34,270 nt of DNA from a virus. Made by a program: the position numbers and the translations under genes. This document shows, piece by piece, positions 12,945-26,575 of this stretch. The first letter of the stretch is position 1. Each line of letters opens with the position of its first letter. Under the pieces are notes generated by a model. It had not been told where the DNA came from. It searched no databases and saw nothing but the letters and a program-made list of their open reading frames with translations. Where the stretch lies: positions 1-34,270 of IMG/VR virus record IMGVR_UViG_3300050821_006405. The stretch is one strand, 5' to 3'.

Positions 12945-13312
12945 GTAATGGAAAAAGATACTTTAATATGGAAGAAGCTATTAAAAATGGCAAACAATTT
13001 TATTGGGACAACTATGCACTAGATGAAGGGAGATCTGGGGGTGTAAAGTGTCCAAAATGTTTGATATGGATAGAATTTCCTAGAAAAAGAAAAAATCATC
13101 TTATGACTTGGATAAAGGATTGCGAAAATTGTGAAATAAAAGATCCATTTAGAAGAATGTGGCATCAGTTTAATAGCTGCTGTGATGATGATCAAAGAGA
13201 AATTTATAATGCTTGGCTAAGAAAGCTAAGATCTTTATCTTCAGAGTTCTCTATTGATATCCTAAGACATATTCAAGATCTTCCTTTTTTTGAAGGAGTA
13301 TCAAATGAGTAG
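12941..13312 (+). CDS. Hypothetical protein with zinc ribbon
   Basis: 123 residues. CPKC (37-40) and CENC (61-64) frame a basic loop (FPRKRKNHLMTWIK), a classical zinc-ribbon layout. The C-terminal half is helical and Arg/Glu-rich (REIYNAWLRKLRSLSSEF). Its last 8 bases overlap the resolvase gene. Possibly nucleic-acid-binding; not assigned to a family. Confidence 0.6.
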   Translation: MSNGKRYFNMEEAIKNGKQFYWDNYALDEGRSGGVKCPKCLIWIEFPRKRKNHLMTWIKDCENCEIKDPFRRMWHQFNSCCDDDQREIYNAWLRKLRSLSSEFSIDILRHIQDLPFFEGVSNE

Positions 13313-13877
13313 TGGAAAAAAAATAGGATATAAACGAGTCAGCACAAACGAGCAAAATCCTGAAAGCCAACTCATCGGTATAGAACTAGATAAGACTTTT
13401 GTAGACATCGAATCGGGCTATTCAACAAAAAACAGACAGCAACTACAAGACCTCAAAGAGTATGTAAGAGATGATGATATCGTATATGTAGAGTGTATGG
13501 ATAGGCTAGGAAGAAACGGATATGATTTAGATAACATCGTCGAATTTTTGCTAGCAAAGGGTGTAGAGATACACTTTGTTCGAGAAGGTATCATACTGGG
13601 AAAAAAGAATGATTTTATGTCTAAGTTAGCATACGACATGATGAAGTCATTCATCCATTTTTTTTCCCAACTGTTCAAAGAGCGGCAACGCATCGGTATT
13701 GAGAAAGCTAAGAAAGATGGGAAATACAAAGGCGCAAAAAAGAAATTGGATGCTTATAAAATTGAATTGCTTAAGCAAAGAATGCAATCTCGCGATAGCA
13801 AAAACAAAATTGCAAAAGAGTTCGGAATATCACGATTCACTCTTTACAAATATTTAGCAAAGATAAATTTAAATTAG
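13305..13877 (+). CDS. Small serine recombinase (resolvase/invertase family)
   Basis: Start at ATG 13305 (190 residues) because AAGGAG is 6 bases upstream. The N-terminal catalytic domain has GYKRVSTNEQN (8-18) with the nucleophile Ser13, Arg11, DRLGRNG (66-72) carrying the conserved Arg pair, and an E-helix region FKERQRIGIEKAKKDGKYKG (124-143). The C-terminal HTH is at about 165-185 (SKNKIAKEFGISRFTLYKYL). This is the Tn3-resolvase/Gin-Hin size class, not the large phage integrase class. It may resolve genome multimers, invert a fibre segment, or be a moron; no crossover site was identified beside it. Confidence 0.85.
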   Translation: MSSGKKIGYKRVSTNEQNPESQLIGIELDKTFVDIESGYSTKNRQQLQDLKEYVRDDDIVYVECMDRLGRNGYDLDNIVEFLLAKGVEIHFVREGIILGKKNDFMSKLAYDMMKSFIHFFSQLFKERQRIGIEKAKKDGKYKGAKKKLDAYKIELLKQRMQSRDSKNKIAKEFGISRFTLYKYLAKINLN

Positions 13878-20400: not shown

Positions 20401-22437
20401 ATGGGCTCATACGAGTCGGGCAATTATTCACTTGGCTATATCGATCCATCCGATGTTCAAGCCAAAGATCTAAAGCAAATGAAAGACTGGTTTTACCAGT
20501 CAAATTATCCTACGAATTCGTGTTATTGGCTTCAAGGAGCTATTGACAAGCGATTTAAAGTAGGCGATCAGCAGCTATATAATCAAGTATATGGCCAGAA
20601 TTCTCAAAACGTCCAGAAGTTCTTTTTCAATTTAGTCCGCCGTCATATCAATATGATATGCGGGTTTCAGCGCAAGAACCGTAAATCTACTGTTACATTA
20701 CCAAACGATAATAATGATGATCCGCTTTCGGATGACTACAACAAAGTCATGCGCTGGTGTGATGATAGAGATGGGTTTCAAGAATATATCTCACAAGCAT
20801 TTGAAGGGGCATGCGACACAGGAGAAACTCTTCTACACCTATACCCGGACTACACATTCGATCCTATATCTGGTGATTTATTTACGGATGCGGTCCAGTG
20901 GAATAATTATTTGATTGATCAATATACTAGGAAGCAGGATCTTAGCGATTGTAACGGGATCTGGAGGAGAAGGTGGACGTCTAAGACAATGGCTAAATTG
21001 CTTTTGCCTGGTTATGCAGAAGAAATCGATAAGATGAGACCGGGAGGGATGAAAGATGGACGTTTCCCTCTTCAAGCAGAATTGCAGAATGTTGCTACAA
21101 GCAATTTATTCACCTACGACGAATTCTACTATCGCACGACACGGCCCGGCAAGATGATACTCGATACGATGAGTGGGGAAGCGGTTGAATGGGAAGAAGA
21201 CGAGACAGAAGAAGAAGGAATGATGGAAAGGGTGCTCTATGAGCAGCCATGGTTAAAAGTTCAAGATGTACAAATACCGACAGTAAAGCTAATTATAAGC
21301 TTATCAGACAAGAATGTATATCACGGTAAGAACCTTCTTTCAATTGACGAATATCCTTTTGTCCCCCTGCAAATTTATGTAGAACAAGACATCCAAGCAT
21401 ATGCGTGGAAGAAGCAGGGCATCATAAGAAATCTTAGAGATGCTCAATTCCTTTACAATATGCGCAAAGTCATTGAGCTTCAGCTACTTCAATCTAGTTT
21501 GAATGCTGGTTGGATATACCCCGTTGATGTTGTTCCTGATGCAAAATGCTTTAGGCAAACAAGCGGCGGTGATGGTTTCCTTATACCACTTAAAGCGGGA
21601 CGTTTACCCAATGAGATTCAAAGAATTGAGCCAGTTGCTATACCTCAATCTTTACTTGAGCTTTCTAATAGCCTTGCGGAAGATATCACAAAAATTTCGG
21701 GTGTAAATGAAGAGCTCTTGGGAAGCGCGACAGACGATAAATCCGGGATACTCTCTATGCTTAGACAAGGAGCTGGACTTACTACTTTACAAACTATCTT
21801 CGATAAGCTTGATTACAGTCAGCGCTTATATGGAAAAATACGGCTTCAAGGGATACGTAAAAACTTTTCTAAAGGCAAAATCCGCAATATACTTGGGCAT
21901 GAGGCGGATCCGAGATTCTGGACAAGCCATAGCCAAAAATATGCAATTACAGTTGAAGAAGGTAACTATTCAGCTACGCAACGACAAATGGAACTCCAAC
22001 AACTCTTACACTTTAAACAATTAGGCATGCAAATCGCCGATAAATCTATTTTAAGAGCTGCGTTTATCACTAATAAGCGACAAGTCATTGCAGATATGGA
22101 AGAGCAAATGGAGCAGCAAAATCAACAGCAGCAAGCACAATCCCAACAGCAAGAAAAAATGGACAATGCTAAGATAATGGGTATGTTTGCCAAGGCTAAA
22201 GCTGATATAGCCAAAGAACAGGACTTGCAAGCCTCTACACAAGAGAGATTCGCCAAGATCGAGGATTTACATGCTGGTGCATTACATAAGCAAACACAAG
22301 CAGATCTAGACACCGTCAAAGCGATGATCGAATTAGAGGATTTAGATTTAGCTAACTTCCGACAAAATCTCGAATTAGCTGAATACATCAAAGGCGTCAA
22401 TAAAGCTACACAACAAATCCCTGCAATGGCAGGATAG
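20401..22437 (+). CDS. P22-like portal protein
   Basis: 678 residues, near the size of P22 portal (about 725). N-terminal region: FYQSNYPTNSCYWLQGAIDK, RFKVGDQQLYNQVYG, FFNLVRRHINMICGFQRKNR (about 75-100), the typical start of P22_portal proteins. The middle contains YHGKNLLSIDEYPFVPLQIY and ISGVNEELLGSATDDKSGI (stem/crown region). From about 555 on, a Gln-rich helix (QQQQAQSQQQEK) and a long coiled coil resemble the P22 C-terminal barrel. It forms the dodecameric ring for packaging and ejection. No in-frame start lies upstream because of a stop at 20380. Ribosome-binding site absent; see the leader repeat. Confidence 0.9.
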   Translation: MGSYESGNYSLGYIDPSDVQAKDLKQMKDWFYQSNYPTNSCYWLQGAIDKRFKVGDQQLYNQVYGQNSQNVQKFFFNLVRRHINMICGFQRKNRKSTVTLPNDNNDDPLSDDYNKVMRWCDDRDGFQEYISQAFEGACDTGETLLHLYPDYTFDPISGDLFTDAVQWNNYLIDQYTRKQDLSDCNGIWRRRWTSKTMAKLLLPGYAEEIDKMRPGGMKDGRFPLQAELQNVATSNLFTYDEFYYRTTRPGKMILDTMSGEAVEWEEDETEEEGMMERVLYEQPWLKVQDVQIPTVKLIISLSDKNVYHGKNLLSIDEYPFVPLQIYVEQDIQAYAWKKQGIIRNLRDAQFLYNMRKVIELQLLQSSLNAGWIYPVDVVPDAKCFRQTSGGDGFLIPLKAGRLPNEIQRIEPVAIPQSLLELSNSLAEDITKISGVNEELLGSATDDKSGILSMLRQGAGLTTLQTIFDKLDYSQRLYGKIRLQGIRKNFSKGKIRNILGHEADPRFWTSHSQKYAITVEEGNYSATQRQMELQQLLHFKQLGMQIADKSILRAAFITNKRQVIADMEEQMEQQNQQQQAQSQQQEKMDNAKIMGMFAKAKADIAKEQDLQASTQERFAKIEDLHAGALHKQTQADLDTVKAMIELEDLDLANFRQNLELAEYIKGVNKATQQIPAMAG

Positions 22438-23571: not shown

Positions 23572-23623
23572 ACAGCAGTGGAGAGCATATAAAAGAAATT
23601 ATATGATGGGATTGATCGAATGA
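23507..23623 (+). CDS. 38-residue basic protein in overlapping frame
   Basis: MRKVRVKSLRENLKKILPKP then TKQQWRAYKRNYMMGLIE. It lies in another frame across the 3' end of the previous gene (65-base overlap) and stops as ATGA onto the next gene. The pattern basic-Leu, PTKQQWRxxKR resembles very small basic proteins I recall from other phages. Probably real and used for translational coupling; function unknown. Confidence 0.5.
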   Translation: MRKVRVKSLRENLKKILPKPTKQQWRAYKRNYMMGLIE

Positions 23624-24294
23624 CAACAGATAATTGGAAAAAGATAGAGCGTATTACTGCGGGAGAACTATCAAAAAAGGCATTATCTGATAAAACGAAA
23701 TATGATGCCTTAGAAGTCGGTCATGCTCTATCGGACGAAATAGCTCCTCAGCTCAGAATATGTATCGAGAATCACAAGAATATCATCAATGAAAATGAAT
23801 TTTGCATTGTGATGCTAATTTCTAAAGACCCCCTTATATCCAATCTTCAGCGACGAAAGTTTTATGCTTGGCCTTACCTGCCTAAGCCAAGGCCAAATCA
23901 AAGCGTATTTCTCTACAATAAGGGCAAAGATTTAATTACTCATCGTCTATGGATATTGCCTTCAGATATGGTTATGGCCGAACTTCATTCAATGGCTATC
24001 GTCGACAAGCGTTATCAAACGATGAAAGCATGGTCGGATGCATTTTACAAGGGTTGGAAATTAGATAAAAAGACCAAACAATTTTACAATTCCGATCCTT
24101 GTCATTTCTGGAACTTTGTCAGAAAAGATCAAAAGATCGATATGCTTTCAGAGCATGAATATTTTCTAAAGCATCGCGATGAACTTATCCAAGCTGGCGG
24201 TAAGATCCCCAATTCTACGGACACCGAGCCCTTTGACTTTAGCAAAATCGCAATCAAAGAGGTGGTAGACACGATGACACCCGTGAGCGATTAA
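23620..24294 (+). CDS. Conserved phage protein before scaffold, unknown
   Basis: 224 residues starting by ATGA overlap. Recognisable segments: RRKFYAWPYLPKPRPNQSVF (about 78-97), LYNKGKDLITHRLWILPSDM, MKAWSDAFYKGWKLDKK and DMLSEHEYFLKHRDELI. This pattern occurs between portal and capsid genes in related phages, from memory, without known function. Its 3' 129 bases are antisense to the leftward gene at 24166-24483. No enzyme motif is visible. Confidence 0.65.
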   Translation: MTTDNWKKIERITAGELSKKALSDKTKYDALEVGHALSDEIAPQLRICIENHKNIINENEFCIVMLISKDPLISNLQRRKFYAWPYLPKPRPNQSVFLYNKGKDLITHRLWILPSDMVMAELHSMAIVDKRYQTMKAWSDAFYKGWKLDKKTKQFYNSDPCHFWNFVRKDQKIDMLSEHEYFLKHRDELIQAGGKIPNSTDTEPFDFSKIAIKEVVDTMTPVSD

Positions 24295-24483
24295 AGCATT
24301 CTCAATTACTTTAGGTAAACAAAGCACTCCTATAGGCGCATCAGCAGCCATTTGATTCAATGTATTTCTATATTCCTCGAATTTCTTAAGTACTTCTTCT
24401 CTAATCTTTTTCATTCTTTCTTCATATTCAAAATTTTGCTTTACAGTCTCAGGGTTTTCAATTAATTTGTTTTCTTCAGACAT
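24166..24483 (-). CDS. Leftward protein with RNAP alpha-CTD-like HhH domain
   Basis: 105 residues from ATG 24483 (GGGA six bases upstream). N-terminal half is a charged helix (NFEYEERMKKIREEVLKKFE). Residues about 58-105 (LCLPKVIENALIAHGCHRVY, HLFDCDFAKVKGLGVRRIGD, LTASLDKFIAML) fit the helix-hairpin-helix fold of the RNA polymerase alpha C-terminal domain: LPxxIENAL, xHRVYxLxxxD, VKGLGxRRI. Such a domain could bind DNA or mimic alpha-CTD to alter transcription; this is inference. It is the only leftward gene in the late region, 14 bases head-to-head with the scaffold gene and antisense to 129 bases of the gene at 23620. Confidence 0.65.
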   Translation of the reverse strand: MSEENKLIENPETVKQNFEYEERMKKIREEVLKKFEEYRNTLNQMAADAPIGVLCLPKVIENALIAHGCHRVYHLFDCDFAKVKGLGVRRIGDLTASLDKFIAML

Positions 24484-24497
24484 AGGAGATCCCAATT

Positions 24498-25301
24498 ATG
24501 ACAGATGTTATTGCCCAAGATAATAAAGAAAAAATTATACCGCAAGAAGTTGCTGCTATTCAGCGACAAGAACAACAACAAACTAAGCAAAATGTACCAG
24601 AGCAAATTTCTCAAGTTAATACAGAAACCAACGTTGAAACACAAGAAGATCCGAATTGGCATGCTCTTAGAGAATCTAGGAAAAAAGAACGCGCTGAGAG
24701 ACAGGCTGCGGAACGCAAAGCAGCGGAAAAAGAGGCGGAGGCTCAAGCTCTTAAAGCAGCGATGGAAGCACTTATTTCAAAATCATCTCCTTCCTCGCAA
24801 GCATATCAGCAATATTATTCAATGAATGGCCCAAATGAAGGCGAAGAAACAGAAGATCAACGCATTGAAAAGAAAGTAAATGCCGCTATTGCGATCAGAG
24901 AAGCAGCAGCAGAAAAAGCGCGCATAGAAAGAGAAAGAGCAGATTTACCCCATAGGTTAAGAAAACAATTTCCCGATTATGATCAAGTGGTAAACGAGGA
25001 GAATGGCGATTATTTAGAATATCATCATCCGGAAGTATATAGAGCACTATTAAGACAACCAGAAACCTTCGAAAGCCTCTCAGATGTATATAACGTAGTA
25101 AAAAAATATATTCCCAATGCCAAAAATGCAAAGAAAGATGCAGCGAAAGCAGAAGCTAACTTAAATAAGCCAAAGTCCATTTCTAGCACAGGCATAACAC
25201 AGCCTGGAGAAGCAACACAAAGAAGCAGTATGCAAGATATTGAAGCTAGAAGAGCTGCAAGATATGCTGAGATGCAACGAATTATGAAAGGGATGGGATG
25301 A
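24498..25301 (+). CDS. Head scaffolding protein
   Basis: 267 residues directly before the capsid gene. Composition is typical: disordered Gln/Glu-rich N-terminus, long coiled coil (about 60-95, RKKERAERQAAERKAAEKEA), a second Ala/Arg/Glu helix (about 130-155), a small folded part (LRKQFPDYDQVVNEENGDYL; VYRALLRQPETFESLSDVYN) and a basic C-terminus (ARRAARYAEMQRIMKGMG) for capsid binding. GGAGAT precedes ATG 24498. Scaffold directs capsid shell assembly and is lost before packaging. Assigned from position and composition. Confidence 0.75.
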   Translation: MTDVIAQDNKEKIIPQEVAAIQRQEQQQTKQNVPEQISQVNTETNVETQEDPNWHALRESRKKERAERQAAERKAAEKEAEAQALKAAMEALISKSSPSSQAYQQYYSMNGPNEGEETEDQRIEKKVNAAIAIREAAAEKARIERERADLPHRLRKQFPDYDQVVNEENGDYLEYHHPEVYRALLRQPETFESLSDVYNVVKKYIPNAKNAKKDAAKAEANLNKPKSISSTGITQPGEATQRSSMQDIEARRAARYAEMQRIMKGMG

Positions 25302-25606: not shown

Positions 25607-26575
25607 ATGACATTTTCTACCGGGATAACCGGTATCAATAATATGGCTCCTGAGCTACCTGTACAGGCTAGCGAGGACCTTTTATCCACACCAATGTTTA
25701 ACCTGATCCACTCCTTTGGAGTAGATCTACATCATGCCGAATCTTATATCGGCAAGACCACACGCATGTCCCGTTTTGAAAGATTGTCAACGGATGGAGG
25801 ACAACTGGATGGTTCAGGGATTGATCCAGCATCAGAAGTTCCCGTCCGCACTGACATCGATGCTACCATGGAGATTTATGCAAAATCTATCGTTACAAAC
25901 GAGCAGGTCGTTTTGTTTGAGAATTCTAAGACCCTAACCAAGTTCACAGCATTGCTAGGAGGCTGGGTCAGGGAAAAGGAAGATCTTTTGATGCGTGACC
26001 TTTTTAGCTCAAGTGTCAGTTACATAAACGCCACTGGGGGCTTAAACGCAGATCAACCAAGTAACCTCTCCTTGAACGATGTAAACAACATCGAAACCAT
26101 TCTTCTTGGAAATGATGCCCTTAGCATGCTTACAAGCTTAGAAGCGACTCTAAAGTTTGCTACAGGTGGCGTGAGAGACGCTTTTATTGCTCTTGCAAAT
26201 ACAAACTTAACTGCCGATCTTCAAAAAGTTCAAGGAGTATTGCTTAAATCAGCATACCCAACACAAGAGGGAATTAGGCCAGAAGAGTATTGCTCTATTT
26301 CTCGATTCCGTTTCTTTGTTTCTTCTAAAGCTGCAAGGACACCCGGAATTTCGTTGAAGGGAAATACTGTCTATACAATCCCTATGTATGGCCTTGAAGC
26401 AGCTGCAAAGATCGAGCAGAACAACTATACAGCCGTCATTGGATATAGACCTCCTTGGGTCGTTTCATCCGTGGCACAAAACAGCCAATTGTATGCCAAG
26501 TTTGCAATCGCTCGTGCGATCACAAACCAAAACTGGATCTCCGGTTTGAACGTAACGACATTCCAACCATCATAA
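25607..26575 (+). CDS. Major capsid protein (N4-gp56/HK97-fold type)
   Basis: 322 residues after the scaffold gene; GTGAGG precedes ATG 25607. Features of the N4-gp56-like capsid family: N-terminal TPMFNLIHSFGVDLHHAESY, IGKTTRMSRFERLSTDGGQL, the P-x-G-x4 loop (PVRTDIDATMEIYAKSIVTN, about 80-100), LREKEDLLMRDLF-type helix (GGWVREKEDLLMRDLFSSS), and late strands NNYTAVIGYRPPWVVSSVAQ, followed by a C-terminal NQNWISGLNV. It should form the icosahedral shell. The order scaffold, capsid, decoration supports the call. Confidence 0.85.
   Translation: MTFSTGITGINNMAPELPVQASEDLLSTPMFNLIHSFGVDLHHAESYIGKTTRMSRFERLSTDGGQLDGSGIDPASEVPVRTDIDATMEIYAKSIVTNEQVVLFENSKTLTKFTALLGGWVREKEDLLMRDLFSSSVSYINATGGLNADQPSNLSLNDVNNIETILLGNDALSMLTSLEATLKFATGGVRDAFIALANTNLTADLQKVQGVLLKSAYPTQEGIRPEEYCSISRFRFFVSSKAARTPGISLKGNTVYTIPMYGLEAAAKIEQNNYTAVIGYRPPWVVSSVAQNSQLYAKFAIARAITNQNWISGLNVTTFQPS

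Follow-up and report, generated by a model that had tools for sequence, protein, structure and literature searches.

The window, i.e. the complete stretch of DNA that was analysed, is a virus record of 34,270 bases. On its minus strand, an open reading frame extends from an ATG at position 24483 to a stop codon at position 24166 and encodes a protein of 105 residues with the predicted fold of the C-terminal domain of the RNA polymerase alpha subunit (alpha-CTD). This gene (24166..24483, minus strand), which was assigned on the basis of the open frame, its conservation, and purifying selection, is named anti in the following. Four plus-strand genes form its context: a P22-like portal gene (20401..22437; PF16510, E 1.6e-65), the universal partner gene g23620 (23620..24294), a putative scaffold gene that is the head-to-head neighbour of anti (24498..25301), and the gene of the major head protein (25607..26575; phrog_1357, E 3e-6). 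A family search with the gene at 24498..25301 gave no match; the label "scaffold" is therefore putative and was derived from its position between the portal and major capsid genes and from its conservation beside anti.

The genes anti and g23620 share 129 nt (24166..24294), which include both stop codons, and their phase is such that second codon positions lie opposite each other. On the other side, the start codons of anti and of the scaffold gene are separated by 14 nt (24484..24497), which contain two back-to-back Shine-Dalgarno sites, AGGAG for the scaffold gene and a weaker GGGA for anti in the window. The sequence-only reading had given the same 14-base gap to the scaffold gene and the same 129-base overlap with g23620, and its coordinates are all correct. 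Its description of anti as the lone leftward gene of the packaging/head region was also borne out: between 17.6 and 34 kb, relatives keep only one minus-strand frame open, that of anti (166 of 168 loci), and the next most widely matched one reaches at most 34 of 113.

Conservation of the antisense frame

Homology scans were performed in IMG/VR plus two binned contigs. With anti as a query, seven relatives were detected in IMG/VR; an alignment of these led to 122 stretches encoding anti, 80 of which were taken for analysis. The tested genes beside anti in relatives are all on the opposite strand. For the first scans, anti, g23620, and the capsid protein served as queries, the last of them in bacterial genomes. 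Among the resulting 169 loci, 166 contain g23620, and in each of these 166 the antisense frame is present in the same phase. The overlap varies between 111 and 252 nt and is exactly 129 nt long in 100 loci. The frame was likewise kept in all 75 loci with g23620 of a second set, and in 121 of 121 loci of a third set that was collected with the major capsid protein as the only query. As a capsid-protein query says nothing on the overlap, the third scan is free of a bias toward it. Many contigs are common to several locus sets; the first set corresponds to 107 distinct region sequences. In phage records of 34-39 kb, anti occurs as a single copy (19 of 19).

A broken antisense frame beside an intact g23620, the finding that the sequence-only reading had named as evidence against its proposal, was sought with the anti, g23620, and capsid queries, and no case was found. 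Judged by these sequences, anti is universally kept in a clade of uncultured phages with a P22-type portal. Homologues of anti in cultured phages were not found by tblastn at E<=1, and a search with the capsid protein found no cultured relatives either. That anti is a real gene is virtually certain.

Selection on the two frames

Selection was assessed with 21 independent close pairs and uncorrected counts, which makes the absolute pN/pS ratios rough. Outside the overlap, anti has a pN/pS value of 0.36 (21 pairs), indicative of purifying selection, and changes at the three codon positions amount to 0.23, 0.16, and 0.39 per codon, i.e. third positions change most. For g23620, the corresponding pN/pS value is 0.13. 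The synonymous divergence of g23620 drops from 0.59 outside to 0.33 inside the overlap and is lower inside in all 21 independent pairs. Within the overlap, rough and uncorrected pN/pS values are 0.39 for anti and 0.37 for g23620, and second codon positions, with 0.055 changes per codon, vary least, compared to 0.22-0.23 at the other two. Both frames are thus always open and both are under selection in the shared bases, which are the properties of antisense dual coding.

Predicted structure of anti

An AlphaFold2 model based on 100 relatives has a mean pLDDT of 85, and 48 residues reach a value of at least 90. Residues 11-48 (24340..24453, minus strand) form a long N-terminal helix, which is followed by four short helices. 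Residues 48-103 (24175..24342, minus strand) were assigned as an alpha-CTD-like helix-hairpin-helix (HhH) domain by means of Foldseek and VIA-align (range in the model, 44-103). The sequence-only reading had proposed such a structure prediction as a check on its view that the C-terminal domain of anti resembles alpha-CTD. Each of the 50 best matches of a Foldseek comparison with the PDB is an RNA polymerase alpha subunit or its CTD (best E 6.7e-3). VIA-align superimposed 59 residues on the Synechococcus alpha-CTD with an rmsd of 1.1 Å (Z 10.2); RAD51-type HhH domains came next (Z 8.7). The protein shares with alpha-CTD (PF03118) the four-helix HhH fold and the landmarks P(I/V)xxLxL and GxG, which align. 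It differs by its own long helix, by an unconserved R265 position, and by the lack of the alpha N-terminal assembly domain; anti is a stand-alone frame.

At the level of sequence, the resemblance is only borderline. A profile search of PDB sequences with anti yielded RNA polymerase alpha as 12 of 14 hits (best E 0.022). The protein of the window has no match to PF03118, and the Pfam scores of its relatives are below the cut-off; at E<1, four of 100 relatives match (best 0.011). With hhalign, the anti profile scored a probability of 45-56 for RuvA-type HhH (HHH_5) and of 7-13 for alpha-CTD, whereas HMM scores favour alpha-CTD. Because Pfam scores are sub-cut-off and hhalign favours the RuvA-type HhH, descent of anti from rpoA is not established. 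The proposed likeness to alpha-CTD thus holds for the fold, which the model very probably renders correctly, but for the sequence only marginally.

In the alpha-CTD of E. coli, R265 is the main DNA contact. A residue alignment anchored on the landmarks P256 and G296 was used for comparison with 100 relatives of anti. The position of R265 is variable (V 25%, T 16%, A 14%) and that of N268 is occupied by Lys (38%) or Asn (27%). Position 296 is Gly in 87%, position 298 is variable, and position 299 is Arg in 85%. The E. coli DNA-contact set (R265, N268, G296, K298, S299) is therefore not reproduced in anti. Conserved are the GxG hairpin and R90, which belong to the HhH motif K[VI]KGLGxxR at residues 82-90 (24214..24240, minus strand; G85 98%, G87 87%, R90 85%, n=100), and a separate set consisting of C55, E61, R71, and D74. 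The protein of 12 kDa is near neutral (pI 6.3), which does not clearly speak for DNA binding.

Two BFVD entries, both uncharacterised and from uncultured phages, are close relatives of anti (identities of 77 and 58%). The predicted fold is shared, at about 21-23% identity, by several small phage proteins that carry the annotation "RNA polymerase, alpha subunit, C-terminal", e.g. A0A6J5MNY7 and, from Mycobacterium phage Mithril, A0A5Q2WLP1. No function was found for the phage proteins annotated in this way, and our search for literature on stand-alone phage alpha-CTD proteins yielded none.

The partner gene g23620

The gene g23620 encodes approximately 210 residues and is located between the portal and scaffold genes. 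Its AlphaFold model has a pLDDT of 88; Pfam and PHROG gave no match, and no PDB chain exceeded Z 3.4 among those compared. The model possibly represents a new phage structural fold. On the anti side, the overlap corresponds to residues 64-105, which are folded in the model and carry the classical HhH hairpin. On the g23620 side, a short helix merges into coil and the pLDDT value falls from 93 to 55; the last approximately 33 residues are coil. The conserved PFDFSK motif of g23620 is the complement of the DFxKxKGL hairpin of anti. As anti is folded in the overlap and g23620 is mostly coil there, the models suggest that g23620 was extended over an older HhH gene.

Start region and transcription signals

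The start codons of anti and the scaffold gene are 1-16 nt apart in 100 of 105 relatives, and 14 nt is the most common distance. At least four Shine-Dalgarno bases precede anti in 87 and the scaffold gene in 98 of 100 relatives, compared to 9.5% of random 12-mers; the start codons were picked partly by this signal, which makes these figures somewhat favourable but does not affect the constancy of the gap. Since start codons and Shine-Dalgarno sites abut, the leader of each gene must lie inside the other gene; transcription of both genes would give mRNAs with complementary 5' ends. The abutting sites alone yield GGAG-N-CTCC; a special palindromic operator in the gap is therefore unneeded as an explanation.

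Upstream of anti, sigma-70 promoters are not enriched (score 5.49, compared to 5.46 ± 0.02 in dinucleotide shuffles). A lone TATAAT approximately 56 nt upstream in the window is present in just two of 100 relatives. Enriched 7-mers in this region were rejected as a promoter, because they appear traceable to conserved or repeated segments of the scaffold protein. A search for an intrinsic terminator of anti found none.

The N-terminus of the scaffold protein, whose coding region is upstream of anti, contains tandem repeats (e.g. in the relatives L024, L032, and L045) with a DNA unit around AAAGTTGACACAAATTT. The repeats are KVDTNL-like in the protein, and their copy number varies among relatives.

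A model for the function of anti

In a noncontiguous operon, a gene on the opposite strand lies inside an operon, and both repress each other by collision of polymerases or by double-stranded RNA (PMC7154746). The arrangement of an opposite-strand gene nested in an operon is found in the window and in all relatives. As anti begins next to the scaffold start and ends inside g23620, a transcript of anti would be antisense to the late mRNA throughout. The reading that we prefer, with a probability of roughly 40%, is that anti and the late genes constitute a phage-borne noncontiguous operon with a regulator. The anti protein would be made while the late operon is off, i.e. early or in the prophage state, and rightward late transcription would silence anti via polymerase collision and/or double-stranded RNA. 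By means of its alpha-CTD-like domain, the protein would contact DNA and/or RNA polymerase or a partner factor and would help to set the timing of late-gene onset. Given the alpha-CTD fold, contact with DNA, RNA polymerase, or an activator would be the likeliest work of anti, and it is plausible to assume that anti controls transcription. Several observations speak against the preferred reading: neither an enriched sigma-70 promoter nor a terminator was found for anti, the position of R265 is variable and that of N268 mixed, hhalign prefers RuvA-type HhH, the protein is near neutral, and it lacks the alpha N-terminal domain by which it could join RNA polymerase. It is rather unlikely that the stand-alone protein binds to the RNA polymerase of the host, to sigma, or to a phage activator as part of a two-state switch, with anti on and the late genes off or the reverse; such a switch would be self-contained, because anti and the late operon are oriented in opposite directions and have bases in common.

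Related arrangements have been described. In S. aureus phage 80alpha, the noncontiguous-operon arrangement of ith-1/tha-1 ties their switching to the life cycle (PMC11087260). In Pseudomonas phage Fc02, the antisense genes olg1 and olg2 are tied to lysogeny and encode exclusion proteins (PMC9936078). With the excludons menE-menC-MW1733-ytkD of S. aureus and ith-1/tha-1 of 80alpha, anti has in common the nested opposite-strand gene and, as predicted from the layout, mutually antisense mRNAs. In contrast to these excludons, anti overlaps the coding sequence of an operon gene, has a start codon and a Shine-Dalgarno site directly next to the corresponding signals of the neighbouring gene, and sits in the capsid cluster. 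The genes olg1/olg2 are, like anti, protein genes antisense to an operon gene, but they are located in the lysogeny region and have a putative promoter known from sequence and RNA-seq.

Tha/Ith of S. aureus phages and the exclusion genes of Fc02 are also precedents for a different role: anti could serve host takeover, exclusion, or defence as an accessory protein that is expressed outside the late phase, and its antisense site would only keep it off during virion building, without any regulation of late genes. HhH and alpha-CTD folds also serve protein contact, and residues C55, E61, R71, and D74 of anti do not coincide with the DNA-contact set of alpha-CTD. However, accessory genes are usually patchy, whereas no member that could be examined lacks anti, and we regard this role as unlikely.

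An invariable position between g23620 and the scaffold gene, a single copy, and an occurrence as universal as that of structural genes would also fit an assembly or packaging helper, i.e. a DNA-binding HhH protein that acts with portal, scaffold, or g23620 and is expressed from a weak leftward promoter, the overlap being a by-product of genome compaction. This is improbable: antisense transcription would shut anti down just at assembly, and the remaining head genes are all on the plus strand. The chances are slim that the leftward transcript is mainly an antisense RNA that tunes g23620 or late mRNA, with the protein being incidental. With this layout, transcription of both strands would inevitably produce complementary RNAs, but coding selection outside the overlap, conserved ribosome sites, and a conserved fold speak for the protein. 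That the frame is due to chance, or is a coding shadow of g23620 from which no protein is made, can practically be dismissed, although the phase with facing second positions favours long mirror frames, because over half of anti lies outside g23620, is conserved there with codon-position periodicity and under selection, and no other mirror frame stays open.

As anti is kept in all cases and its predicted fold is that of the RNA polymerase tail which contacts DNA and activators in bacteria, it is a good candidate for built-in timing control of phage gene expression. A stand-alone protein with an alpha-CTD fold that is kept clade-wide points to an undescribed handling of host transcription. Moreover, only few antisense dual-coding genes of prokaryotes and their phages are well supported; anti/g23620, for which there are more than 100 distinct variants in nature, a predicted fold, and a constant layout, allows overlapping-gene evolution as well as antisense switching to be studied.

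Phage clade and further genes

One of the two binned contigs with the locus belongs to a Bacteroidetes bin and the other to a Nitrospiraceae bin, which is weak evidence for the hosts. Further genes of the window code for a Cro-like repressor and for a DNA invertase, a small serine recombinase of family phrog_125 (13290..13877); no clear integrase was identified among the window proteins tested.

For the capsid protein (25607..26575), identities among many relatives are as high as 88-97%, which is unusual for a capsid; the proteins encoded next to it often show values of 40-80%. In the relatives L007, L017, L018, L021, L036, L046, L063, L080, and L084, the major capsid gene is broken by inserts of approximately 200-850 bp. 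These are located at few recurring positions of the protein, near residues 30, 101, 119, and 137, which suggests mobile introns or inteins; none of the Rfam intron families attained its gathering score in the six loci tested. In L021, a match to the int-alpA RNA family (RF02996, 42 bits) was found at 2202-2266 on the minus strand, near the start of the region between the scaffold and capsid genes.
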